Source: an uncultured Demequina sp.
GTDB lineage: Bacteria; Actinomycetota; Actinomycetes; Actinomycetales; Demequinaceae
NCBI RefSeq assembly: GCF_913055775.1
Contig: NZ_CAJXJX010000013.1
Location: 1 to 33,554 of the forward strand
DNA: 33,554 bases
Direction: 5' to 3'
The stretch's first letter is position 1. Each line of letters starts with the position of its first letter. This document shows, in pieces, positions 1 to 33,554 of the stretch. The position numbers and the translations under genes were made by a program. The notes under the pieces were generated by a model, which did no database searches, had not been told where the DNA came from, and saw only the letters and a list, made by a program, of their open reading frames with translations.

Positions 1-2322
1 GGCGACATCGTGCTGCTCGAAGCGGGCGACCTCGTTCCCGCCGACGGCCGCATCCTCACCTCGGCATCGTTCGAGGCCCAGGAGGCGGCGCTCACCGGCG
101 AGTCCGCGGCCATCGAGAAGCGGGCCGATGCGGTGGCTGAGGACGCGGTGCTCGGGGACCGGCGGTCGATGCTCTATCAGAACACCTCGGTGACGCGGGG
201 AACGGGCACGGCCGTGGTGGTCGCCACGGGCATGGGCACGGAGATGGGCGCGATCGCGACAATGCTTGCGGGAGTGGAGCGCGTGGTGTCGCCTCTCCAG
301 AAGGAGCTCAACGGGCTCACTCGGGCCATCGGCGCGGTCGCCTGGGGAGCAGTGGTGGTGATCATCGGCATGGGCCTCGCACGCGGGCAGTCGTTCGCGG
401 ACCTCATGTTCCTGGGCACGGCGGTCGCGATCTCCGCGATCCCGACGGGCCTGCCCACGTTCGTGCAGCGCATGCTGGCGTGGGGCGCGAACAGGCTCAC
501 CGAGGCCAAGGCGATCGTGACGTCGCTCAACGACGTCGAGACGCTCGGCTCGACCAGCGCGATCTGCTCGGACAAGACCGGCACGCTCACCATGAACGAG
601 ATGATGGCGCGCGAGGCATGGTTCGGGGGACACCACTACAGCATCGCGGGCCACGGCTACTCGTTCGACGGCCAGATCAGGGCCGAGGCCGGGGAGGTGG
701 TCGAGGGCACGCCGGAGATCGCCTTCGCGCTCGCACTGCCCAACGACGCCACCGTGAGCGAGGACGGCGACGTGGTGGGCGACCCCACCGAGGCGGCATT
801 CGTCGTGCTCGCCGAGAAGCTCGGCGTCGACGTCCCGGCGACCCTCCGTCGCTACCCGCGCGTCGCGGAGGTGCCGTTCGACTCGGACTACAAGTTCATG
901 GCGACCTTCCACCGCATCGAGTGGGAGGGGCAGGACCGTCTCGTGATCGTCGTCAAGGGTGCTCCTGACGTGGTGCTCGGGCGGTCGACGCGCTTCGTCG
1001 AGCATGATCGCTCGCTGTCGCCCATGGAGGGCCGTGCTGCTGACGTCGAGTCGGAGATCGAGCGCATGAGCGAGCAGGGACTGCGCACGCTGTCGCTCGC
1101 GATGCGCACCGTGGAGCCTGAGGACGAGGAGCGGGCGATCGCCGACCCCATGGCCGCCGTGGCGGACCTCGCCTTCGTGGGCGTCGTCGGGATCGTCGAC
1201 CCGCTGCGACCGGCCGCCAAGATCGCCGTCGAGCAGGCGCGCGCGGCGGGGATCGAGGTGCGGATGATCACCGGAGACCACGTGGTGACTGCCCGCGCGA
1301 TCGGCCGTGAGCTCGGTCTGGAGGGCGAGGCGCTGACCGGAACGGAGTTCGCGGCTCTGAGCGACGAGGAGATCGACGCGCGAGTGGACGGGATGTCGGT
1401 GTTCGGGAGGGTGACCCCGCAGGACAAGCTGCGACTCGTGCGCCGCCTCCAGGCGAGGGGCGACGTGGTGGCGATGACCGGCGACGCCGTCAACGATGCG
1501 GCGGCGATCAAGCAGGCGCAGATCGGCGTCGCCATGGGCTCCGGGTCGGAGGTGACCAAGCAGGCGGCCAAGCTGGTGCTCACCGACGACAACTTTGCGA
1601 CCCTCGTCAACGCCGTGAGGCTCGGTCGCGTCGTCTACCAGAAGATCATCAACTACGTGACGTTCCAGATGTCGCAGCTGATCGCGCTCGTCGCGCTGTT
1701 CCTGGCGGCAAGCGTGTTCAACATCAATCAAGGCGTGGCGCTCACGCCGATCATGGCGCTCGCGCTCAACTTCGCCATCGTGCTGTTCTGCGTCGTCACC
1801 ATCATCGCGGATCCCGCGCCAGACGGTCTCATGAAGAGGCCTCCCCGGGACACCTCCCAGGGGATCTCGAGCGGCGCCAGCGTGTGGCGGTGGGCTCTGT
1901 ACGGGCTGCCTCTGTTCCTCGCCGCTCTCGTGCCGCAGGTCGTTTTCGGGGACGACCTGAACCCCGACGGCGCATCGGAGCCCATGACCATGACCTTCGT
2001 GATCATGTCTTTGGGCACCGTCGTCACCGGCCTCGCGTTGCGCCGTGATCCCGAGAGCGGGCTGCGCGGGCCGTGGGGCAAGGCGCCGCAGCTCTTGGTG
2101 TGGCCGGTGGTGCTGACGATCGCGGCGACCGAGCTGGGCTTCCTTCAGACCTGGCTCGACACGACCCCGCTGTCGGGTCCCCAGTGGCTCATGTGCCTGG
2201 GGCTCACCGCAGTGGTGCTGGCTGTCGTCGAAGGCCACAAGGCCGTGATGCGGCGACGCCTGCACCAGCCGGCCGCCGCGCTCGACGTGAACGAGGCCGT
2301 GGCGCCCGCGCGCGCACGCTGA
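1..2322 (+). CDS. P-type cation-transporting ATPase, 3' part (5' end outside window)
   Basis: Membrane pump that uses ATP through a phospho-aspartate intermediate. The reading frame is open from base 1 (GDIVLLEAGD), so the N-terminus is missing, perhaps 100-150 residues. Visible in order: actuator-domain TGES near residue 35, TM4 with IPTGLP near 147-151, phosphorylation motif CSDKTGTLT with the Asp codon at 571-573, the nucleotide-binding domain, hinge TGDAVNDAAAI near 494, then C-terminal membrane helices. Three motifs depart from the Ca2+/heavy-cation norm: IPTGLP instead of IPEGLP, TGDAVNDAA instead of TGDGVNDAP, and a TM6 stretch (NFAIVLFCVV) without the usual N-L-x-T-D pattern. The P-type fold is certain. 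The transported ion is not: Ca2+, Mg2+, Mn2+ or monovalent ions are all open. No linked regulator is visible downstream. Confidence 0.93.
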   Translation, partial: GDIVLLEAGDLVPADGRILTSASFEAQEAALTGESAAIEKRADAVAEDAVLGDRRSMLYQNTSVTRGTGTAVVVATGMGTEMGAIATMLAGVERVVSPLQKELNGLTRAIGAVAWGAVVVIIGMGLARGQSFADLMFLGTAVAISAIPTGLPTFVQRMLAWGANRLTEAKAIVTSLNDVETLGSTSAICSDKTGTLTMNEMMAREAWFGGHHYSIAGHGYSFDGQIRAEAGEVVEGTPEIAFALALPNDATVSEDGDVVGDPTEAAFVVLAEKLGVDVPATLRRYPRVAEVPFDSDYKFMATFHRIEWEGQDRLVIVVKGAPDVVLGRSTRFVEHDRSLSPMEGRAADVESEIERMSEQGLRTLSLAMRTVEPEDEERAIADPMAAVADLAFVGVVGIVDPLRPAAKIAVEQARAAGIEVRMITGDHVVTARAIGRELGLEGEALTGTEFAALSDEEIDARVDGMSVFGRVTPQDKLRLVRRLQARGDVVAMTGDAVNDAAAIKQAQIGVAMGSGSEVTKQAAKLVLTDDNFATLVNAVRLGRVVYQKIINYVTFQMSQLIALVALFLAASVFNINQGVALTPIMALALNFAIVLFCVVTIIADPAPDGLMKRPPRDTSQGISSGASVWRWALYGLPLFLAALVPQVVFGDDLNPDGASEPMTMTFVIMSLGTVVTGLALRRDPESGLRGPWGKAPQLLVWPVVLTIAATELGFLQTWLDTTPLSGPQWLMCLGLTAVVLAVVEGHKAVMRRRLHQPAAALDVNEAVAPARAR

Positions 2323-2439
2323 TTCCGGGGAGGGCCGGGGGAGTAGCCGCGCACTGAGCGGCGGTGCGGCGCGAGCCCGTAGCGCGCCTTCGACGCCTCC
2401 TGCTCGAAGCCTTTCGTTCGACTGAATCGTTCCATGTTC

Positions 2440-2465
2440 GATTTGTTGGACTTTGTTACAAAATC
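2440..2465. promoter_or_regulatory. AT-rich operator-like site upstream of sugar ABC operon
   Basis: In an otherwise GC-rich region there is an AT-rich island with TTTGTT at 2442-2447 and again at 2452-2457, one helical turn apart. It is framed by an imperfect inverted repeat (GATTTGT ... ACAAAATC). ROK-family sugar repressors often bind AT-rich sites of this look, so a xylose-type repressor is a reasonable guess. The regulator is not in the window. Confidence 0.35.
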
Positions 2466-2524
2466 GTGATGTTCGCGTGCTGAAACGGACACTCTGACCC
2501 GGCGCGGCCGCCTGTGTTCCTCGC

Positions 2525-2557
2525 TACTGTGACAAAGGCCACTCGACGAAGAGTGGC
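2525..2557 (+). promoter_or_regulatory. Possible -10 (TACTGT) and 5'-leader hairpin of sugar ABC operon
   Basis: TACTGT at 2525-2530 fits an actinobacterial -10; no good -35 is seen. About 8 nt further a 7-bp perfect stem (GCCACTC/GAGTGGC, loop gacgaa) spans 2538-2557 and would lie at the start of the mRNA leader. It could stabilise the transcript. No known riboswitch is recognised. Confidence 0.35.
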
Positions 2558-2572
2558 GCGGAGAGATCCTCC

Positions 2573-2596
2573 ATGACACAGAGAGGTGTGATGTGA
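2573..2596 (+). CDS. Putative 7-codon leader ORF overlapping the binding-protein start
   Basis: ATG at 2573 opens a short frame, MTQRGVM, ending at TGA 2594-2596. That stop overlaps the GTG start of the binding-protein gene (2593-2595) by 4 bp, the same coupling seen between real genes here. GGAGAG at 2560-2565 is well placed as its Shine-Dalgarno. It may be a translation-coupling leader peptide. At seven codons it could equally be chance. Confidence 0.3.
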   Translation: MTQRGVM

Positions 2597-3648
2597 AGAA
2601 GAACTCATGGGCAAGCCTGGCGGCCACCGCCAGCGTGGCCGCGATAGCGCTCACCGCGTGCTCAAGCGACAGTGGCGGCGGCGACGCCGACGGTCGTGCG
2701 TGTGTGATCCTGCCGGATGCGGCGTCCTCGCCGCGATGGGAGAACGGCGACCGTCCGGCGCTTGACGAGGCCATTACGGCCGCCGGATTCTCGGTCGACA
2801 TTCAGAACGCCGAAGGCGACACCGGTCAGTACGCGACCATCGCCGAGCAGCAGCTCACTCAGGGCTGCGACGTGATGCTCCTCGTCGATCTCCAGGGCGC
2901 CGCTGTCTCCGTCATGGAGAACGCTCAGGCGGAGGGCATCCCCGTGATCGCGTACGACCGTCCGATCGCCGGCGCCGACTACTACGTGTCGTTCGACAAC
3001 GTGCGTGTGGGTGAGCTCGAGGGCCAGGCGGTGCTCGACGGACTCGACGCCAACGGAATCGACCCGGCGGACGCGGTCGTCGTCTACATCGGCGGAGACC
3101 CTGCTGACGGCAACGCCGCGATGTTCTACGAGGGCGCGACGTCGGTGATGGAGGGTGCAGGCATCACTGCCGCTGCAGAGCCCCCGGGCCTGTGGGACGG
3201 TGAGCACTCCGCCACGGTCTTCGAGCAGGCGCTCACCGACTTGGGCGGTGAGGTCGACGCCGTGTGGGCGGCGAACGACACCAACGCCGCGGGCGTCATC
3301 ACGATCCTGGACAAGAACGGTCTGACCGTTCCGGTGTCGGGCCAGGACGCCTCGGTCGCTGGACTGCAGAACGTCCTCCTGGGCAAGCAGACCGCCACGG
3401 TCTACAAGCCGTTCCAGGTTGAGGCCGAGGCCGCATCCGAGCTCGCGATCGCGCTCCTGAACGGAGAGACGCCCGAGGCCGACATGGCGCTCGAGGACGG
3501 CACTCCGTTCATCGCGGTCGACCCGATCCTGGTCGGGCCGAGCGAGGTCCAGCAGGTCATCGACGACGGCAACGCCGACTATGACGAGATCTGCGCGGGC
3601 GATGTCGCGTCCGCGTGCGACGAGGTGGGGCTCGAGGCAGCAGCCTAG
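2593..3648 (+). CDS. Sugar ABC transporter substrate-binding lipoprotein (xylose-type, XylF-like)
   Basis: Periplasmic-binding-fold protein, 351 aa, that captures a monosaccharide outside the membrane and delivers it to the permease two genes downstream. The N-terminus is a lipoprotein signal: KKN, hydrophobic stretch, lipobox LTAC with the Cys near residue 23, then a Ser/Gly linker. The segment PVIAYDRPI..ADYYVSFDN near residues 115-140 is characteristic of the D-xylose-binding branch of the type I binding proteins. The GTG start at 2593 is chosen because it gives the complete signal peptide, with GAGAGG just upstream. First gene of a binding protein, ATPase, permease set; a strong hairpin separates it from the ATPase gene. 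Xylose is the best guess, but arabinose, galactose or another sugar is possible. Confidence 0.9.
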   Translation: MKKNSWASLAATASVAAIALTACSSDSGGGDADGRACVILPDAASSPRWENGDRPALDEAITAAGFSVDIQNAEGDTGQYATIAEQQLTQGCDVMLLVDLQGAAVSVMENAQAEGIPVIAYDRPIAGADYYVSFDNVRVGELEGQAVLDGLDANGIDPADAVVVYIGGDPADGNAAMFYEGATSVMEGAGITAAAEPPGLWDGEHSATVFEQALTDLGGEVDAVWAANDTNAAGVITILDKNGLTVPVSGQDASVAGLQNVLLGKQTATVYKPFQVEAEAASELAIALLNGETPEADMALEDGTPFIAVDPILVGPSEVQQVIDDGNADYDEICAGDVASACDEVGLEAAA

Positions 3649-3667
3649 GCCGCTCGAGGCGCACGAG

Positions 3668-3703
3668 GGGGGTTCCGCATCGCATCCGCGATGCGGAACC
3701 CCC
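3668..3703 (+). terminator. Perfect 16-bp intercistronic hairpin
   Basis: GGGGGTTCCGCATCGC pairs perfectly with GCGATGCGGAACCCCC across the 4-nt loop ATCC. It lies 20 bp after the binding-protein stop and 50 bp before the ATPase start. There is no T-tract, so it is more likely a 3'-end stabiliser or partial terminator giving more binding protein than ATPase and permease, an arrangement common in ABC operons. Confidence 0.75.
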
Positions 3704-3752
3704 GGTCTGTCAGACTCGACCCACCACCGATCACGTCAAAGGAGACACAGCG

Positions 3753-4502
3753 GTGAATCAGCCGATCATCGAACTCAAGCAGGTCACCAAGAGCTTCGGC
3801 CCGGTCGACGTGCTCAAGGGCATCGACTTCGAGGCCCGCGCCGGGCGCGTGACCGCGCTCGTCGGCGACAACGGAGCCGGAAAGTCCACGCTCATCAAGG
3901 GTCTCGCCGGTGTGCAGCCCTACGACGGTGGAGAGGTCCTGTTCGACGGGTCACCTGTTCACCTGCACCACCCGCGAGAGTCGGCACGGCACGGCATCGA
4001 GGTGGTGTACCAGGACCTCGCGCTGTGCGACAACCTCGACATCGTGCAGAACATGTTTCTGGGCCGCGAGGAGATGGCGGGGGGCACCTTTGACGAGGGC
4101 CGCATGGAGGTCGAGGCGGCGGCCGCTCTGCAGGCGCTGTCCGTGAAGACCATGACGTCCCTGCGACAGAAGGTCGCCTCGCTGTCCGGTGGACAGCGCC
4201 AGACCGTTGCCATCGCGCGCTCGGTGGTCAAGCAGGCCAAGGTGGTGATCCTCGACGAGCCCACGGCTGCACTTGGAGTCGCGCAGACCGCTCAGGTGCT
4301 GAGCCTCGTCCGCCGGCTCGCCGACAGCGGCGTCGCCGTCATCATCATCTCGCATAACCTCCAGGACGTCTTCGAGGTCGCGGATGACATCGCGGTGCTG
4401 TACCTCGGCACGATGACCGCACGCCTCACAGCCCGGGAGACGAACCCCGACGAAGTCGTCGGGTACATCACGGGCACCAAGACGCAGGAGGCGGCGGCAT
4501 GA
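3753..4502 (+). CDS. Sugar ABC transporter ATP-binding protein (single-domain)
   Basis: Cytoplasmic ATPase, 249 aa, powering the sugar transporter. Walker A GDNGAGKST near residue 39, ABC signature LSGGQRQ near 145, Walker B VVILDEPT near 165 and the switch histidine in IIISHN near 200 are all present. It has one nucleotide-binding domain, unlike enterobacterial XylG or RbsA, which carry two in about 500 aa, so the working unit should be a homodimer as in FrcA-type systems. GTG at 3753 is chosen over the upstream ATG at 3615 because AAAGGAGA sits just before it and the earlier frame runs through the binding-protein gene and hairpin. The TGA overlaps the permease ATG by 4 bp. Confidence 0.93.
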   Translation: MNQPIIELKQVTKSFGPVDVLKGIDFEARAGRVTALVGDNGAGKSTLIKGLAGVQPYDGGEVLFDGSPVHLHHPRESARHGIEVVYQDLALCDNLDIVQNMFLGREEMAGGTFDEGRMEVEAAAALQALSVKTMTSLRQKVASLSGGQRQTVAIARSVVKQAKVVILDEPTAALGVAQTAQVLSLVRRLADSGVAVIIISHNLQDVFEVADDIAVLYLGTMTARLTARETNPDEVVGYITGTKTQEAAA

Positions 4503-5785
4503 CCACCGAGACCCAGGGCCCCGTGGTCGAGCCCTCAGACGCGAGCCCGGCAGCCCAGAGCCTGCTCGGCCGCGGCGTCGAGCAGGGCGTCTTCGAGCAC
4601 GGCCGTTCGTACCTGCGGCGCCTGCGCGGCGGCGAGATGGGGGCGCTGCCAGCGATCGGCGGGCTGCTGGTGCTGTTCATCATCTTCGGCTCCGCGCACA
4701 GTGCGTTCCTGACCCCGCGCAACATGGCCAACCTGATCACGCAGGCGGCTCCGCTCGTGGTGCTCGGCATGGCGCTCGTGTTCGTGCTGCTGCTCGGGGA
4801 GATCGACCTGTCGGCTGGCGTCACCTTCGGTGTCGCGATGGCGGTCTTCGTGAAGTACACGCAGCCGGACGGGCTGGCGTGGCCGGTGGGCCTCGCTCTG
4901 GCGATGGGCATCGGCTTCGCCGTGGGCGCCACGATCGGATTCTTCGTCGCCAAGATAGGCGTGCCGTCCTTCGTGGTCACGCTGGGTCTGTTCCTCGGGC
5001 TCCAGGGCGTGATCCTCATGGTGATCGGCGCGGGTGGCACGTACCGACTCATTCCTGAGCCCATCAAGGCCATCCAGAACTCGAATATGCCCGTCTGGGC
5101 GGGTTGGGCCATGCTCGCCGCGCTCGTGGGCCTGCTCGTGCTGGTGGCCATGTGGGATCGGTGGCGCCGTGCACGTTCGGGCGCCCCGAACCCGGCGCTG
5201 TCGATCGTGCTGCTCAAGCTGGGCACCATCGTGGTGCTCGGCGCGGCATTCGTGACGTTCATGAACCTGGACCGTGGCCGTGCCGCCCAGGCGATCATGG
5301 GCGTGCCGATCGTGGTGCCGGTGGTGCTGCTGATCGGGCTCATCGGCACTTTCGTGCTCGATCGCACCCGGTTCGGCCGGTACATCTACGCCATCGGCGG
5401 CAACCGCGAGGCGGCTCGACGGTCCGGCGTCAACGTCACGGCGGTCAAGTGGTCCGCGTTCGTCGTGTGTTCGTCCCTCGCGGTGCTCGCCGGTGTGCTG
5501 TACGTGTCGAGAGTGGGCTCGGCGGATGCGTCGACGGGGCGCGAGATCGTGCTCTCCGGCGTCGCAGCGGCCGTGGTGGGCGGGGTCAGCCTCTTCGGCG
5601 GGCGGGGTCGACTCATGCACGCCGCGGTGGGCGCTTTCGTGATCGCGACCATCGAGAACGGCCTGGGTCTGCTGGGCTTCTCGGCCGGCGCGACGCTCGC
5701 CGTCTCCGGCGGCGTGCTGATCCTCGCCGCGACCGTCGACGCCCTGGCGCGACGGCGCTCTGGCGGCGGCTCGACGAACTCCTGA
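4499..5785 (+). CDS. Sugar ABC transporter permease (XylH/RbsC family)
   Basis: Integral membrane channel subunit, 428 aa, of the sugar importer. About 60 hydrophilic N-terminal residues are followed by many hydrophobic helices. The family motif GEIDLSAG near residue 100, the segment [15 protein letters not shown] near 157, and [13 protein letters not shown] near 300 (the cytoplasmic loop contacting the ATPase) are clear. The protein is longer than RbsC (about 320 aa), with extra sequence before and in the middle of the helices, matching the longer XylH-type permeases. Its ATG overlaps the ATPase stop (ATGA). A 17-bp hairpin begins 2 bp after its stop codon and closes the operon. Confidence 0.92.
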
Positions 5786-7954: not shown

Positions 7955-9598
<1,644 letters not shown>

Positions 9599-11912: not shown

Positions 11913-12668
11913 ATGACGCGCACCCTGGTGATCGGCGCGACCGGCAGTGTGGGACGCGTGGTCGTGCCCGCTCTGGCGGACGCACGCCTCGACCCGGTCG
12001 CCTTCGTACGGGACCCTGCACGCGCATCGGCCCTCCTGGGGGACGTGTCCGTCGCGGAGGGTGCGCTCGAGGACCACGTCGCTCTCGCGGCGGCACTGCA
12101 CGGGGCCGATGCGGTGGTCATGGTCCACGGCGCGTCCGGTTCCGCACGGGCCGAGGACGTCGACTACGGCGCGGTGCCCGCGGTGCTGAGGGCTCTCGGC
12201 GGGGCGCGGCCGCACGTGGTGCTGATGACGTCCATGGCCGTCACGCACGCGACCGGCAGCTGGCGCGAGGCGATGCACTGGAAGCGGAGGGGAGAGCGGC
12301 TGCTGCGGGCGAGCGGTCTGCCTCTCACGGTCATCCGACCCGGGTGGTTCGATCTGCAGCCTTCGGGCTGGGACTGCGTCGCGATCGAGCAGGGGGACGT
12401 GACGCCGGTCGACTCGCGTCGCCCCGTTGCTCGGTCCCACATCGCCGATGCGGTGGTCGCTTCGCTGCAGTGTCCCGCTGCGGTGGGGGTTACCTGTGAG
12501 CTGTTCGCCGCACCGGGAGCGCGCGAGACGAACTGGTGCTCGCGGCTCGAGGCGCTGCGGCGGGACGTGCCGGGCGCGCTCGATGCGGCGATGGATCCCG
12601 AGGGGCCGGCGATCGAGGACGAACCGGCGCGGCTGCGTGCTGACCTCGCCGCATTGCGTCCCAGGTGA
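11913..12668 (+). CDS. NAD(P)-binding Rossmann-fold protein, NmrA / atypical SDR type
   Basis: 251 aa. The N-terminal dinucleotide-binding motif GATGSVGRVV starts at residue 7, followed by FVRDP at the end of the second strand. SMAVTH near 105 and RPGWFD near 145 are typical of NmrA-like or epimerase-like atypical short-chain dehydrogenases. The YxxxK catalytic pair is not obvious (HWKRRGERLLRAS instead), so a sensor or NADPH-quinone-reductase-like role is as likely as a dehydrogenase. The start ATG at 11913 has neither a Shine-Dalgarno nor a clear -10. The ATG at 11905 is out of frame and stops at once. An 8-bp hairpin follows the gene. Confidence 0.8.
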   Translation: MTRTLVIGATGSVGRVVVPALADARLDPVAFVRDPARASALLGDVSVAEGALEDHVALAAALHGADAVVMVHGASGSARAEDVDYGAVPAVLRALGGARPHVVLMTSMAVTHATGSWREAMHWKRRGERLLRASGLPLTVIRPGWFDLQPSGWDCVAIEQGDVTPVDSRRPVARSHIADAVVASLQCPAAVGVTCELFAAPGARETNWCSRLEALRRDVPGALDAAMDPEGPAIEDEPARLRADLAALRPR

Positions 12669-28273: not shown

Positions 28274-28861
28274 ATGGCAATGAACGACACGTCCACCACC
28301 ACTGTCGAAGGGCCCGTGGGTTCGCGGGCCGGATGGGTGATGCTCAGCATCACCCGCATCGTTATCGGGTTCTACTTCCTGTGGGCATTCATCGACAAGG
28401 CGTTTGGCCTGGGCTTTTCCACCTGCCGCAACTCTGCGGAGGACGGATCGTTCACGGTGGATGTCTTCTGTGACAGCGCGTGGTTCAACGGATTCCCGCG
28501 CATCACCGAGGGCTACCTGGTGTTCGGCGGGAATCCCCAGAGTCCTTTCAACGACTTCTACGTCGATTTGGGAGGACAGGCGTGGACCGACTGGCCGTTC
28601 ATGATCGGCCTGCTCGGCATCGGACTCGCGCTCATGCTCGGCATCGGCACGCGGATTGGAGCCATCTCCGCAACCCTCATGCTGCTCATGATGTACACCA
28701 CGCAGATCCCGCTCTCCACGAACCCGTTCCTTGACGACCACATCATCATGATCGTCGCCGTCATCGCGGCGGTCTTGCTCGAGGCCAGGTATCAAGCCGT
28801 CGGGTTCGGCCAAGCGTGGAAGCGCATGGGAGTCGTCGAGAAGAACCGCTGGCTCATCTAG
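28274..28861 (+). CDS. DoxX-family integral membrane protein
   Basis: 195 aa with four predicted membrane helices: ITRIVIGFYFLWAFIDKAFG near 29, PFMIGLLGIGLALMLGIG near 117, ATLMLLMMYTTQI near 138 and HIIMIVAVIAAVLLEARY near 158. The FYFLWAFIDK segment and overall pattern fit the DoxX / TQO small-subunit fold. A longer extracytoplasmic loop between the first two helices holds two Cys (STCRNS and VFCDS) that could form a disulfide. The ATG at 28274 has AAAGGAG 7 nt upstream. Members take part in thiol-oxidation or redox homeostasis in some actinobacteria; here the role is unknown. Confidence 0.85.
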   Translation: MAMNDTSTTTVEGPVGSRAGWVMLSITRIVIGFYFLWAFIDKAFGLGFSTCRNSAEDGSFTVDVFCDSAWFNGFPRITEGYLVFGGNPQSPFNDFYVDLGGQAWTDWPFMIGLLGIGLALMLGIGTRIGAISATLMLLMMYTTQIPLSTNPFLDDHIIMIVAVIAAVLLEARYQAVGFGQAWKRMGVVEKNRWLI

Positions 28862-28873
28862 CCGCGTTCTTCG

Positions 28874-28904
28874 GGCGGGGCTGCGCACTCGGCGCGGCCC
28901 CGCC
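28874..28904 (+). terminator. Strong intrinsic terminator after the DoxX-family gene
   Basis: A 13-bp stem (GGCGGGGC with GCCCCGCC, one T-G, then GCGC with GCGC) around a 5-nt loop, followed directly by TTT on the plus strand. Confidence 0.85.
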
Positions 28905-28944
28905 TTTCCGCGTGCGTCACCCTGGCAGAGGGCCGATGCGGGGC

Positions 28945-29583
28945 TCAGTCCCGCGATTCGAGCCACGCGGCGACCACGTCGCCGATCATGGATCGGTGAT
29001 GGTCGCGCAGGTTCGGGTCCAGCATGTCGCGGCCGAACAGGAAGCCGAACGTGTGGCGGTTGGCGACCTGGAAGAAGCAATACGCGCTGATGACGATGTG
29101 GACATCGAGAGCGTCCACCTCGCGACGGAAGCTGCCGTCGGCCTGGCCTCGCGACAGGATGTCATCGAGGACGCCCAGCGCATTCTGGTTGAGTTCGCGT
29201 AGGCCGTCGATGCCCTGGATGAACTCCCCGCGGTGGATGTTCTCGATGGCCACGAGCCGAATGAACGAGCTGTGGTCCAGGTGGTGGTCGTACGTGCGTT
29301 CGGCGATCCGACGCAGTGCCTCGCGAGGCGGCAGGTCTCCCACGTGCACGGACTGCTCGGCCTCACGGATGCCGCGATAGGCCGCCTCGAGCACCGCGAC
29401 GTACAGATCCTTCTTGCTGCCGAAGTAGTAGTAGATGCCGCGCTTGGTCATCTTCGTGCGACGCGCGATCTCGTCGACGCCCGTGCCTGAGTAGCCGGAC
29501 TCAGCGAAGGCCTCGGTGGCGACCGTGAGCAGTTCGGCGCGCGTGCGCGCGGCGTCACGCTTGCGCCCGGGTGCGGTCGTCAC
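28945..29583 (-). CDS. TetR family regulator at the end of the TRAP cluster
   Basis: 212 aa. The helix-turn-helix is at residues 14-63, with VATEAFAESGYSGTGVDEIARR and MTKRGIYYYFGSKKDLYVAVL. The C-terminal half (ENIHRGEFIQGIDGLRELN, near 115) resembles TetR regulators linked to aromatic or hydroxyacid catabolism, but that is only an impression. The start is GTG at 29583, 9 bp after the phosphotriesterase-family gene's stop. A TAGAGT -10 box, which uses that stop codon, lies 6 nt upstream, so the gene has its own promoter as well as possible readthrough. It probably controls the TRAP/dehydrogenase operon. Confidence 0.92.
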   Translation of the reverse strand: MTTAPGRKRDAARTRAELLTVATEAFAESGYSGTGVDEIARRTKMTKRGIYYYFGSKKDLYVAVLEAAYRGIREAEQSVHVGDLPPREALRRIAERTYDHHLDHSSFIRLVAIENIHRGEFIQGIDGLRELNQNALGVLDDILSRGQADGSFRREVDALDVHIVISAYCFFQVANRHTFGFLFGRDMLDPNLRDHHRSMIGDVVAAWLESRD

Positions 29584-29589
29584 GGTGTC

Positions 29590-29595
29590 ACTCTA
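29590..29595 (-). promoter_or_regulatory. -10 hexamer TAGAGT of the tetR gene, built on the upstream stop codon
   Basis: TAGAGT on the minus strand is followed by 6 nt and the GTG start at 29583. Its TAG is the stop codon of the phosphotriesterase-family gene. Confidence 0.5.
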
Positions 29596-30615
29596 CTGAG
29601 GAGGCAGGCCGGTCCGCAGGTGCGGTGCCGCGACGCGCGGCGCCTCGGAGAGCAAACGTCGCGGAGTGTCGACCAGCATGGTCTCGATCTCCCGGTCGCT
29701 GACGCCAGCCGCGGTGAAACGGGGCAGGACGGTCTCGAACAGGTGCTCCATGTGCCACAGCGGCGCGTGGACCGTCCTCCACGCGGGCGGTGTCACTCGG
29801 CTGAAGACCGCGGCGTCGTGGGAGAGAACCACCTGCTCCACCAGACCGGCGTCGAGGACGGCGAGAAGCATGCGGATGCGCGCGTCATCGGGCAGCACAT
29901 GTTCCATACCAAAGCGGTCGAAGCCCAGGTACGCGCCTCGCGCGGCAAGGGTGAGGAGGTAATCGAGGTCAGTCGAGTCGCCCGCGTGTCCCACGACGAC
30001 CCGGTCAGGGGCGACCTCGAGCTCATCGAGCAGCTCGAGTTGAGCAATCCCCCCTCGGGAGCCCGCGTGCGAGTGCGTCATGATCGCCGCGCCGGTGCGA
30101 CGATGGGCGTGCGCGGCTGCCGCGAACACTCGGCGCACGTCTGGTGTGATGCCGCCGAGGTCCGAGGCGACCTTGATGACCCCTGCTCGGACCTCAGTGC
30201 CTGCAATGCCCTGTTCGAGGTCACGCACCATCAGCTCGACGAGCGGATCCGTCCCGCCGACGAGGGTGCCGGGGCCGTGCATGCGCACAGCGGGCGGGAG
30301 GTCGCCCACGCTGTACCAACCGGTGGCGGCGACGATGCGCACGGGACTTGCGGCGGCGACCCGCGCCACAAGAGAGGCGTTGCGACCGATCCCGGGGACG
30401 GTGAGATCGACGACCGTGCGGACTCCGCGCTCATGCAGGCGGTGCATGGTCTCGACGGCGGAGTCGACCGCGCCCTGCTCATCCCATGAGGGATGAGGCA
30501 GGGCGCGGTCGAGCTCCAGGTCGCCGACGAAGACGTGCTCGTGCATCAGCGTGAGGCCGAGCGCGTCCGGTTCCACGAGGCCCGTGTAGGTCGGGACTCG
30601 AGCGTCGGCTGACAT
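29593..30615 (-). CDS. Phosphotriesterase-family amidohydrolase / lactonase
   Basis: 340-aa TIM-barrel metallohydrolase. Binuclear metal residues are visible: H25 and H27 in LMHEHVF, the bridging Lys in VIKVASDLGG near 146, His in IMTHSHAGS near 180, His in VVGHAGDSTD near 208, and Asp in LSHDAAVF near 264. Family members hydrolyse lactones, phosphotriesters or amides. In an operon with a TRAP importer and a hydroxyacid dehydrogenase, a lactone of the imported acid is the most sensible substrate; that is inference. It starts 14 bp after the binding-protein stop. The ribosome site is weak, so coupling to upstream translation is likely. Confidence 0.9.
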   Translation of the reverse strand: MSADARVPTYTGLVEPDALGLTLMHEHVFVGDLELDRALPHPSWDEQGAVDSAVETMHRLHERGVRTVVDLTVPGIGRNASLVARVAAASPVRIVAATGWYSVGDLPPAVRMHGPGTLVGGTDPLVELMVRDLEQGIAGTEVRAGVIKVASDLGGITPDVRRVFAAAAHAHRRTGAAIMTHSHAGSRGGIAQLELLDELEVAPDRVVVGHAGDSTDLDYLLTLAARGAYLGFDRFGMEHVLPDDARIRMLLAVLDAGLVEQVVLSHDAAVFSRVTPPAWRTVHAPLWHMEHLFETVLPRFTAAGVSDREIETMLVDTPRRLLSEAPRVAAPHLRTGLPPQ

Positions 30616-30629
30616 GACGTCAGCTCGGG

Positions 30630-31697
30630 TCAGGGAGCCGTGGCGCGGATGGCGTTGAACACTTCGAGCGACTCGCCCGTGAACGTGTTCTCGAGGAAGG
30701 CGACCGCCATCTCGGAGAACGCGTCACGGTCGACGTCGTCGACGATCTCCCACTCGCCCTCGGCGCGCCAGGCGTCCAGGGTCTCCGTCTCGCCCTGGGC
30801 GATGCACTCGGTCACCGAGTCCACTGCGGTGATGGTCGCTGCGGACAGCGCCTCCTGCTGCTCGGCGCTGAGCTCGTCCCAGATGGGGCTGACGATCACC
30901 AGGTTGGTGTTGAGCTGGTGAGCCGAGAGGCTCAGGTAGTCCTGGACCTCCTTGAGGTTCGATGCGTCGATGTTCGTGACCGGGTTCTCCTGTCCGTCGA
31001 CGGTGCCGTTCTGGAGCGCGAGGTAGAGCTCCTCGTAGGCGACCTCGGTAGCCGTCGCGCCGAGCGCCTCGGCGTTCATGAGGTACTGCGGCGATCCCGG
31101 GAAGCGCATCCGCAGTCCATCGAGGTCCTCAGGAGTGCGAATGGGGTCGTTGGCGGTGAAGTGACGTGCGCCAGCGGACCACACGCCGAGCGTCTGCACG
31201 CCGGTCTCGGTGTAGAAGCCCTCGATCAGCACGGCGGACTCGTCGCTGGCCATGAATGCGGCGAGGTGAGCTTCGTCGTCGAAGGCGAACGCGGAGTCCA
31301 GCACGCTGATGGGCTCGTACACTGCTCCCAGCGCGGAGGCGCCCTGGATGTCGATGTCGATGTCTCCCGAGACCACCGACGCGATGCGGTCCGCATCGCC
31401 GCCGAGCTGGCTCGACGGGAAGATCTCGATGGTGAGGCCGACGTCTGCGGCGGCCACTTCATCGGCGATGACCTGGGCGCCGCACGCGTGCTGGGGCTGG
31501 TCCTCGGTGTAACTGTGGGCGAGGGTGAGTTCGATCGCCTCGGCCATCGAGTCGTCGGGCTCACTGGTCTCTTCTGCGGTCGTTTCCTCTGAGGTGGGCT
31601 CGTCCTCGGCGTCCGAGGAGGAGCACGCGGTGAGCAGGACCGCCGGGACCGCGGCAGCGGCGATCCAGCGGGTCAGGCGGGGACGTGGTGACTTCAT
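30630..31697 (-). CDS. TRAP transporter substrate-binding lipoprotein (DctP family)
   Basis: 355 aa. A lipoprotein signal (RWIAAAAVPAVLLTAC, Cys near 25) is followed by a 25-residue acidic Glu/Thr/Ser linker, then the DctP fold: LTLAHSYTEDQPQH near 57, FPSSQLGGDADRI near 93, and RMRFPGSPQYLMNAEALGAT near 190, whose first Arg normally pairs with the ligand carboxylate. TEVAYEELYLALQNGTVDGQENPVTNI closes the ligand site. It captures a carboxylic acid for the TRAP permease. ATG at 31697 overlaps the dehydrogenase stop (ATGA) with AGGA upstream; the 694-aa tracked ORF is only an upstream extension of this frame. Confidence 0.94.
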   Translation of the reverse strand: MKSPRPRLTRWIAAAAVPAVLLTACSSSDAEDEPTSEETTAEETSEPDDSMAEAIELTLAHSYTEDQPQHACGAQVIADEVAAADVGLTIEIFPSSQLGGDADRIASVVSGDIDIDIQGASALGAVYEPISVLDSAFAFDDEAHLAAFMASDESAVLIEGFYTETGVQTLGVWSAGARHFTANDPIRTPEDLDGLRMRFPGSPQYLMNAEALGATATEVAYEELYLALQNGTVDGQENPVTNIDASNLKEVQDYLSLSAHQLNTNLVIVSPIWDELSAEQQEALSAATITAVDSVTECIAQGETETLDAWRAEGEWEIVDDVDRDAFSEMAVAFLENTFTGESLEVFNAIRATAP

Positions 31698-32605
31698 CGT
31701 TCCTGTCCTTTCAGTGGTGCCACGTGGGCGGGATTCCTTGTCGCCTCCGCGGCGACCAGGTCTGTGAGGTCGGCAAGCATCGCGGCACGGTCGGCCGGCT
31801 CGCCGGTGAAGATCTCGAAGGCGTCTGCGGCCTGGTTCATGGCCATGCCGAGCCCCGTGACGACCGAGCATCCGCGCGAACGGGCGCCGCGCACGAACGC
31901 GGTCTCGACGGGGCGGTACACGATGTCGACCACGAGCGTTCCTGCGCGCAGGAGCGCAGGATCGACGGCACTGCCCGGGTGCGCCGCCATGCCGAGCGGG
32001 GTGGCGTTGATGACGGTGTCCGCCGCAGGGATGAGGTGGGCCAGCTCCTGCGCGCTCGCGCTCTCGGCGCCCGTCGCGGATGCGAGTGCTTCGGCGCGGC
32101 CCGCGTCGAGATCGGCGACCACGAAGCGCGTGGGCTGTCGCTCGGCGATCGCCCGCGCGACGGCCGCGCCGGCTCCTCCCGCGCCCACCAGCACCGTGGT
32201 GCCCAGCACCCGGCCGTCGCGCGCCTCGTCGATCGAGGCGGCGAACGCCGTGACGTCGGTGTTGTGTCCTACCGCTCGATCGCCGGTGAGCACCACGGTG
32301 TTGACGGCCTCGATGGACGCGGCCGATGGTGCGAGCTCGTCGAGAAGCGGCACGATGGCCTGCTTGGCGGGGTGAGTGACGTTGAGGCCGTTGAAGCCCA
32401 GGCGCCGAGCGCTGTCGAGGAGCGCCTGCAGTCGCGCGGGCTCCGCCTCGCCTGGCTCCATGTTGACGGTGCGGTAGACGTAGGACAGCCCGTGGCGCGC
32501 GCCTTCGAGCTCGTGCATCGCGGGGGTCAGCGACGGGCCCACGCCCTCCCCGATGAGGCCGATCAGCACCGAACGGTGCTTCGCAGCGTGTGCGGTCGGC
32601 GTCAT
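31694..32605 (-). CDS. Quinate/shikimate dehydrogenase-like enzyme (QsuD type, NAD-preferring)
   Basis: 303 aa of the AroE fold. The substrate-binding motif is GPSLTPAMHE with Ser25 and Thr27, where biosynthetic AroE normally has two Ser (S-x-S); the Ser/Thr pair is a feature of the Corynebacterium quinate/shikimate dehydrogenase. Lys81 in NVTHPAKQ and Asp117 in GHNTDV form the catalytic dyad, and the glycine loop is GAGGAGAA at 141-148. After the second strand VVADLD gives an acidic residue (Asp165), favouring NAD over NADP. Its place between TRAP genes supports a catabolic rather than a biosynthetic role, oxidising quinate, shikimate or a similar hydroxyacid. It overlaps both neighbours by 4 bp. 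Confidence 0.88.
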   Translation of the reverse strand: MTPTAHAAKHRSVLIGLIGEGVGPSLTPAMHELEGARHGLSYVYRTVNMEPGEAEPARLQALLDSARRLGFNGLNVTHPAKQAIVPLLDELAPSAASIEAVNTVVLTGDRAVGHNTDVTAFAASIDEARDGRVLGTTVLVGAGGAGAAVARAIAERQPTRFVVADLDAGRAEALASATGAESASAQELAHLIPAADTVINATPLGMAAHPGSAVDPALLRAGTLVVDIVYRPVETAFVRGARSRGCSVVTGLGMAMNQAADAFEIFTGEPADRAAMLADLTDLVAAEATRNPAHVAPLKGQER

Positions 32606-33554
32606 AGTCCCAGCACCCCCGGGAGCCACGCGACCGCGTCGGGCCACAGGATGATCGACACCGCGATCGCGGCTGAGGGAATGAGGAACGGCAGTGCTCC
32701 CCGGAACACCTCACCCACCTTGGTGTTCGACACGTGCGCGGTGACGAAGAGCACGGTTCCCACGGGTGGTGTGAGCAGCCCGATCATCAACGAGACGATG
32801 AGGAGGACACCGAGCACGATGGGGTCCACCCCGAACTCCCGGGCAATCGGCAGCAGGATCGGCACCACCAGCACCAGGATCGCAGTCGCGTCGATGACCG
32901 TGCCGAGCACGAGCATCATGAGTGCCGCCAGGGCGAGGAAGACCATAGGGCTGTCGGTGATCGACAGGACCAGCTCGGTCAGCATCTGGGGGAGGCGCTC
33001 GCGCGCGAGGATGTATCCCAGCAGAGACGCGGAGGCGACGATGAGCATGATGCTCGCGGTTGTCGTGACCGCTTCCCTGAGTGCGGCGAGTGCCGCACGC
33101 CACGGCAGTGAGCGTTGCAGCAGGCCCACGATCGCGATCCACGCGACACCCACCGCCGCAGCCTCGGTGGGGGTGAAGAAGCCGCCCAGGATGCCGCCCA
33201 GAATGATGACGGGCGCCACCATCGGCAGCAGGACGCCTGGAACGGACGAGCGCAACTCGCCGGCGTCGAAGGTGCCGGCGGTGATGTTCGGGTCGCGGCG
33301 GACGAGGATGAAGACCACGACGCACAGGCCGAGCGCCATGATGATCGCGGGCGCGACTGAGGCGGCGAACAGCGCTCCGGTCGACACTGCCGCGAGGCCC
33401 GCATAGATGACGGCGGGGATAGACGGCGGCATCACAGGCGCGACCAGCGATGACGCGGATGAGATTCCCGTCGCGAAGCGGCGGCTGTAGCCGGCCCGGA
33501 GCATCGCAGGGATCTGCACCTTGCCCAGTGCTGCCGCATCGGCCACCGCTGACC
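32602..33554 (-). CDS. TRAP transporter large permease subunit (DctM family), 5' end outside window
   Basis: At least 317 codons; the frame stays open through the window edge, and SAVADAAALG at the edge is an internal DctM motif, so the N-terminal part (about 100 residues) is missing. PVMPPSIPAVIYAG near the visible start, PTEAAAVGVAWI, and the closing LLTPPVGTVLFV are DctM hallmarks. About ten helices are visible. It is Na+-coupled in known cases. The small DctQ subunit is not seen and should lie upstream outside the window. Its TGA overlaps the dehydrogenase ATG by 4 bp. Confidence 0.94.
   Translation of the reverse strand, partial: SAVADAAALGKVQIPAMLRAGYSRRFATGISSASSLVAPVMPPSIPAVIYAGLAAVSTGALFAASVAPAIIMALGLCVVVFILVRRDPNITAGTFDAGELRSSVPGVLLPMVAPVIILGGILGGFFTPTEAAAVGVAWIAIVGLLQRSLPWRAALAALREAVTTTASIMLIVASASLLGYILARERLPQMLTELVLSITDSPMVFLALAALMMLVLGTVIDATAILVLVVPILLPIAREFGVDPIVLGVLLIVSLMIGLLTPPVGTVLFVTAHVSNTKVGEVFRGALPFLIPSAAIAVSIILWPDAVAWLPGVLGL

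Follow-up and report, generated by a model that had tools for sequence, protein, structure and literature searches.

Among the bacterial systems described for quinate and shikimate, the qsuABCD genes of Corynebacterium glutamicum are accompanied by an importer of the major facilitator superfamily (MFS) and a LysR regulator, and are not known to include a tripartite ATP-independent periplasmic (TRAP) transporter, TetR regulator or phosphotriesterase-family (PTE) hydrolase. A TRAP-based route is known from Sinorhizobium meliloti, where the operon SMb20034-20036 serves quinate uptake and adjoins the aroE-like gene SMb20037, and where the TRAP protein SMb20036 binds D-quinate with a Kd of 5.9 nM and shikimate with one of about 0.1 mM (Bourdes et al., PMC3454389). 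Here we analyse a stretch of 33,554 nucleotides (the window) from an uncultured Demequina sp. (contig NZ_CAJXJX010000013.1, assembly GCF_913055775.1), whose closest relatives are Demequina species and whose end carries an operon for a TRAP permease (DctM), a shikimate dehydrogenase-type enzyme (SDH), a TRAP solute-binding protein (DctP), a PTE and a TetR regulator. In our judgement, this operon quite likely belongs to a TetR-controlled regulon for the catabolism of quinate and/or shikimate.

The five genes lie on the minus strand in the order DctM, SDH, DctP, PTE, TetR, and the Pfam scores of all five proteins far exceed the cut-offs. The first-pass annotation of this DNA had proposed a coupled cluster, which is borne out by 4-base ATGA overlaps between DctM and SDH and between SDH and DctP, by gaps of only 14 bases from DctP to PTE and 9 bases from PTE to TetR, and by the Pfam matches. 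Since the window spans the whole of C13, one of the genome's 208 contigs, the missing upstream part of the operon reflects a contig break. Contig C102 of the same genome ends within DctM, carrying residues 1-109, where the C13 part starts, and a 6-base overlap restores the DctM frame to 424 residues in a layout identical to that of relatives. Adding the genes upstream of position 33,554, as had been advised, recovered not only the rest of DctM but also DctQ and then a divergently encoded two-domain 3-dehydroshikimate dehydratase, and the TRAP set is complete. The seeming lack of a dehydratase in the window is thus an effect of the contig break, and the contrast drawn earlier with dehydratase-paired clusters falls away: the neighbouring contig supplies this enzyme as part of the unit, and in some relatives a 3-dehydroquinate dehydratase is present as well. 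The features are as follows.

32602..33552, minus strand: DctM, TRAP large permease, residues 109-424 (PF06808, 252 bits), open at the contig end, with its N-terminal part on C102
31694..32605, minus strand: SDH, putative NAD-type quinate/shikimate dehydrogenase (Shikimate_dh_N, 75 bits; PRK12549, 305 bits, cut-off 235)
30630..31697, minus strand: DctP, TRAP solute-binding protein (PF03480, 198 bits), with a lipobox-like N-terminus (LLTAC)
29593..30615, minus strand: PTE-family, PLL-like metal hydrolase of a cluster-specific subfamily (PF02126, 271 bits)
28945..29583, minus strand: TetR-family regulator (TetR_C_29), last gene of the operon (PF17938, 152 bits)
28874..28904, minus strand: GC-rich hairpin 3' of TetR, without a T run, in a fold of 28846-28944; a possible transcript end, on weak evidence
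C102:7369-9141, divergent to DctQ: 3-dehydroshikimate dehydratase of the QuiC/QsuB type, 591 residues, 72% identical to the D. maris dehydratase over 591 residues
C102:9149-9168 and C102:9193-9212: two palindrome copies, each with one mismatch to AATGTACYANNYRGTACATT

The closest solved relatives of SDH are the chains 2nlo and 3jyo of the C. glutamicum quinate/shikimate dehydrogenase, whose substrate-binding and catalytic residues (Ser17, Lys73, Asn94, Asp110 and Gln258) are identical in the window enzyme and in all aligned members from PTE clusters. The NAD-type Asp158, after strand 2, is also present, whereas a second AroE, encoded beside MltG on contig C18, carries an Asn-Arg NADP motif at this place. 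The NAD preference suggested by the first-pass annotation is therefore matched by the expected residue, and the window enzyme is not the only AroE of the genome. Its membership in the shikimate dehydrogenase superfamily would in itself also suit a biosynthetic AroE with unrelated neighbours; however, the existence of the separate NADP-type enzyme on C18, together with the grouping of the window SDH with the NAD-type quinate/shikimate enzyme, makes that explanation scarcely credible. The residues and the second AroE thus support a predicted NAD-type dehydrogenase that is not the biosynthetic one. Thr19 was tried as a marker for quinate and dropped; the cluster enzymes have either Thr or Ser.

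The D. maris relative of the dehydratase combines PF01261, PF14696 and PF00903, that is, a sugar-isomerase-like N-domain and a C-domain like 4-hydroxyphenylpyruvate dioxygenase, and as a query it finds 5hmq (E 5e-132), the Pseudomonas QuiC1 (PMC7442255), as its best solved structure. All ten active-site residues reported for QsuB (Arg64, Leu97, Glu134, Leu136, Asp165, His168, Gln191, Ser206, Arg210 and Glu239; PMC7442255) are kept at the same positions in 15 proteins, namely the dehydratase of this genome and 14 relatives. For the later steps, a type II dehydroquinase is encoded on contig C49, and contig C97 encodes a protocatechuate 4,5-dioxygenase LigAB (866 bits, cut-off 837), a LigC-like dehydrogenase, LigI and PobA, being by its gene content a cluster for 4-hydroxybenzoate/protocatechuate 4,5-cleavage. 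In Demequina sp. NBRC 110056, a complete pca gene set directly follows the cluster. These genes, added to the SDH residues, make a route from quinate or shikimate through protocatechuate to central metabolism complete on paper. PcaGH was rejected as the ring-cleavage enzyme of this strain; the sole Dioxygenase_C match looks like a secreted protein. As a side observation, the C97 set comprises PobA, LysR, LigI, a fused LigAB, the LigC-like protein, an aldo-keto reductase, GntR and genes of a sulfonate/taurine-type ABC transporter.

In the pathway that we propose, the TRAP transporter, made of the DctP lipoprotein, DctQ and DctM, would import quinate or shikimate, and the NAD-dependent SDH would convert shikimate to 3-dehydroshikimate or quinate to 3-dehydroquinate. 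The type II dehydroquinase would turn 3-dehydroquinate into 3-dehydroshikimate, the divergently encoded QuiC/QsuB-type dehydratase would yield protocatechuate, and the LigAB/LigC/LigI pathway would cleave it. The PTE-family hydrolase, as an accessory, would probably free the hydroxyacid from a lactone or ester in the cytoplasm, and TetR would probably act as a repressor of both transcripts at the palindromes that precede DctQ and the dehydratase gene. Dehydratases of the AsbF type serve petrobactin synthesis (PMC7442255), and the unit could by analogy supply 3-dehydroshikimate or protocatechuate for another product, such as a catecholate siderophore. Yet the importer, the two-domain QsuB-type enzyme and the ring-cleavage genes for protocatechuate, found in the same genome or, in a relative, immediately next to the cluster, make this very improbable beside a catabolic role.

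How far the arrangement extends was examined by a locus search from the PTE, which gave 17 loci among the roughly 85,000 species of a collection (two of them, L046 and L047, with distant PTEs and no cluster), and to which further Demequina genomes and a dehydratase search were added. With each genome counted once and duplicate loci removed, 18 genomes besides this one have a cluster-type PTE; genes of the relatives were called by a simple codon-usage script, and gene starts there are approximate. The order DctM-SDH-DctP-PTE, which the first-pass annotation had wished to see sought elsewhere, occurs in 17 of these 18, well beyond this strain, and is far beyond chance; TetR comes next after PTE in 16, and 16 have the dehydratase at the same locus, one of the exceptions lying on a short contig. 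The same order is seen in Demequina, Microbacterium, Salinibacterium, Brevibacterium, Frigoribacterium and Aeromicrobium, and a type II dehydroquinase gene joins it at some loci of Microbacterium and Brevibacterium. The pairwise distances of the six cluster proteins correlate (r 0.62-0.88).

One locus of the search, L042, has no SDH between DctM and DctP and no two-domain dehydratase; a nearby operon (3-5585), opposite the PTE-TRAP operon, holds an aldehyde dehydrogenase, a citryl-CoA-lyase-like protein and a thiamine pyrophosphate (TPP) enzyme of the types seen in L144, a single-domain sugar-isomerase-like protein and SDH. A related cluster type, with DctP 43-44% identical, appears at L142, L143, L144 and L146, where a TRAP system, SDH and TetR (51-53% identical) go with a dehydratase fusion of about 905 residues; in L144 it adjoins an acylating aldehyde dehydrogenase, a citryl-CoA-lyase-like protein, an acetolactate-synthase-like TPP enzyme and a TauE-type exporter.

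As the PTE was the main route to the loci, its constant presence among them is partly a matter of selection, for which the searches based on the dehydratase and on DctP correct. In an independent sample of 396 genomes of the order, the dehydratase occurs in 76, this type of DctP in 18 and the PTE clade (at least 49% identity) in 11. All 18 genomes with the DctP type have the dehydratase (hypergeometric 2e-14) and all 11 with the PTE clade fall within those 18 (hypergeometric 4e-17), probabilities that ignore shared ancestry and serve as a guide only. The PTE subfamily is found, within this sample, only with this importer, yet it is missing from otherwise similar clusters: two genomes of the closest-DctP set (G262 and G282) have TRAP, SDH and dehydratase without PTE, and a LacI gene in the surrounding sequence.

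A shared regulatory signal accompanies the gene order. The imperfect palindrome AATGTACYANNYRGTACATT stands in two copies between the dehydratase and DctQ, one ahead of each gene, and is present twice per cluster with a chance expectation near zero, mononucleotide-shuffled sequences giving 0.03 matches per 33.5 kb even at three mismatches. At the Brevibacterium and Microbacterium loci with a relocated dehydratase, one copy precedes the dehydratase and one precedes DctQ, and in Frigoribacterium (L045), with the dehydratase downstream of TetR, the gene still has its own copy at 12503. Because the palindrome follows the dehydratase when the gene moves, TetR probably controls both the dehydratase and the DctQ transcripts through these predicted sites. 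Loci that lack this TetR, such as those of L042, L044, L105 and L107, yielded no palindrome, and it is from this pattern of distribution that we infer binding; the ligand of TetR and the sign of its control are likewise presumptive. A variant lies near SDH at each of the four loci of the related cluster type. At L103, an MFS importer, SDH, TetR (64% identical) and the dehydratase stand together, with a palindrome ahead of the dehydratase at 8717, and the regulator may thus work with another importer type too. The gap between TetR and dctQ in S. meliloti holds only a version with four mismatches, and none at three, so that an operator shared across phyla is only suggested.

On the import side, Arg178, Arg198 and Asn238 are invariant in 16 DctP proteins and, when aligned with SiaP-type proteins, are equivalent to the carboxylate-binding Arg127, Arg147 and Asn187 of SiaP. 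The predicted DctP model (pLDDT 74), whose best matches are SiaP-like, does not reveal the cargo. The earlier idea of a TRAP importer for a quinate- or shikimate-type hydroxyacid within one catabolic unit is supported, and we infer the exact cargo, like the substrate of the hydrolase.

The hydrolase itself has the full set of metal ligands of its family (HxH, Lys, His, His, Asp), as His25, His27, Lys148, His181, His210 and Asp267, and no signal peptide apparent by eye. In the alignment with SsoPox, the invariant Tyr101 and the nearly invariant Arg234 correspond to Tyr97 and Arg223, the residues that hold the lactone. The predicted fold (pLDDT 89.7) matches SsoPox and 4if2, the latter being the nearest structure (42% identity, TM 0.92-0.96). 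The cluster PTEs form a clade of their own, split from other PTEs with high support, and after the metal ligand Asp267 they have a loop, HDAAxFSRVTPPSWR, with conserved Ser272, Arg273, Trp279 and Arg280; both arginines are missing in other PTEs. The enzyme probably serves as an accessory hydrolase that yields the pathway acid from a lactone or ester. Lactone opening, as previously put forward, is a plausible guess resting on the conserved lactonase residues, but nothing points specifically to its example, quinide. Arg273 and Arg280 would suit a substrate with its carboxylate intact, a mild argument against quinide itself. More narrowly, we propose tentatively, and with slightly more doubt than conviction, that the cluster-bound subfamily is dedicated to hydrolysing an ester or lactone of quinate or shikimate that bears a carboxylate. 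A literature search found no paper linking a PTE to quinate or TRAP, nor one on a quinide lactonase.

Other roles for the hydrolase were considered. A lactonase of the protocatechuate pathway was rejected, as LigI is present on C97 (4d8l, E 2e-106) and as in NBRC 110056 the PTE adjoins a beta-ketoadipate pathway that has a hydrolase of its own. A stand-in for dehydroquinase was also rejected, since AroQ adjoins PTE clusters in L036, L100 and L102 and is encoded on C49 here. The PTE could also be a detoxification or housekeeping hydrolase, acting on organophosphates or acyl-homoserine lactones and placed in the operon by chance, in line with the organophosphate hydrolysis that named the family and with the SsoPox and VmoLac lactonases among its nearest solved relatives. 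We regard this as improbable, given the same position in relatives across several families, the separate clade and loop, and the fact that in the sample it does not occur apart from this importer. In Roseomonas and Tsukamurella (L148, L149), PTEs of about 42% identity occur in acyl-CoA type operons; the one on the Roseomonas plasmid (L148, 7135-10519; 42% identical) lies between an acetoacetate-decarboxylase-family protein and a thiolase, a hint to the function of other PTE branches.

A more serious alternative is that the importer takes up a conjugate or a lactone, such as an acyl-quinate, an acyl-shikimate or quinic lactone, with the PTE as the first enzyme and the free acid only as an intermediate. 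Several observations would suit it: in the sample, the PTE occurs in 11 of the 13 genomes with the closest DctP and in none of the other 383, its distances track those of SDH best (r 0.79), the four conserved residues of its loop, unlike other PTEs, would suit an anionic substrate, and in Aeromicrobium (L044) the dehydratase follows 3' of the PTE with a 4-base gene overlap. Against this, the importer occurs without PTE in the closest clusters of TRAP, SDH and dehydratase (L105, L107) and in S. meliloti, the cluster lacks genes that would deal with the acyl part of an ester, and a neutral lactone fits poorly to a carboxylate-binding TRAP protein. We hold such a cargo to be unlikely, and uptake of free quinate or shikimate remains our preferred reading.

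Some points weigh against this reading. DctP shares only 29% of its residues with the quinate-binding protein of S. meliloti, too few for a transfer of specificity, so that its cargo is presumptive. The window SDH scores 240 bits against the cut-off of 515 of NCBIfam PRK14027, the equivalog model of the C. glutamicum NAD enzyme; it exceeds the cut-off of the broader subfamily model PRK12549. The dehydratase, at 478 bits over its full length, is below the NCBIfam QuiC equivalog cut-off of 1200, and we therefore call it QuiC/QsuB-like rather than a QuiC equivalog. The palindrome is a predicted operator, and the joining of C102 to C13 relies on the 6-base overlap and on synteny.

If the proposal is true, a dedicated PTE hydrolase would be a new entry step to the pathway and would give a natural substrate to one branch of a family with few known physiological substrates. 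Already, this branch gains a substrate-anchored genomic context that narrows its natural substrate to a short list, and a TetR regulator, a probable palindrome and TRAP-based quinate/shikimate catabolism become linked across Actinomycetota, with a related operon in Alphaproteobacteria.

The latter is the S. meliloti locus (L147), whose record has TetR, DctQ, DctM, DctP and SDH and whose gene content suggests that it corresponds to the published SMb20034-20037. The first-pass annotation knew of no described pathway with this combination, which does not hold for TRAP, AroE and TetR: the first two have their quinate precedent there (PMC3454389) and the TetR is seen in L147. The pairing of a TRAP importer and an AroE-like enzyme for quinate is thus on record, and by comparison the Demequina unit appears as a variant of it. 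The two have TetR, DctQ, DctM, DctP and a shikimate dehydrogenase together (TetR 49%, SDH 47%, DctM 33% and DctP 29% identical), but in S. meliloti the TetR gene is divergent instead of last in the operon, and neither PTE hydrolase nor dehydratase is annotated within 9 kb in L147. With qsuABCD of C. glutamicum, the unit shares the NAD-type quinate/shikimate dehydrogenase and the two-domain dehydratase with the same active-site residues. The hydrolase shares with SsoPox, VmoLac and M. tuberculosis PHP (4if2) the fold, the binuclear metal ligands including Lys, and the Tyr97/Arg223 positions (SsoPox numbering), and differs from them by its cluster-specific loop and separate clade. In contrast to 4if2 and to the PTEs in the acyl-CoA context of L148 and L149, it occurs together with quinate/shikimate genes, and it is the one part of an operon otherwise known from other bacteria for which there are candidate substrates only.

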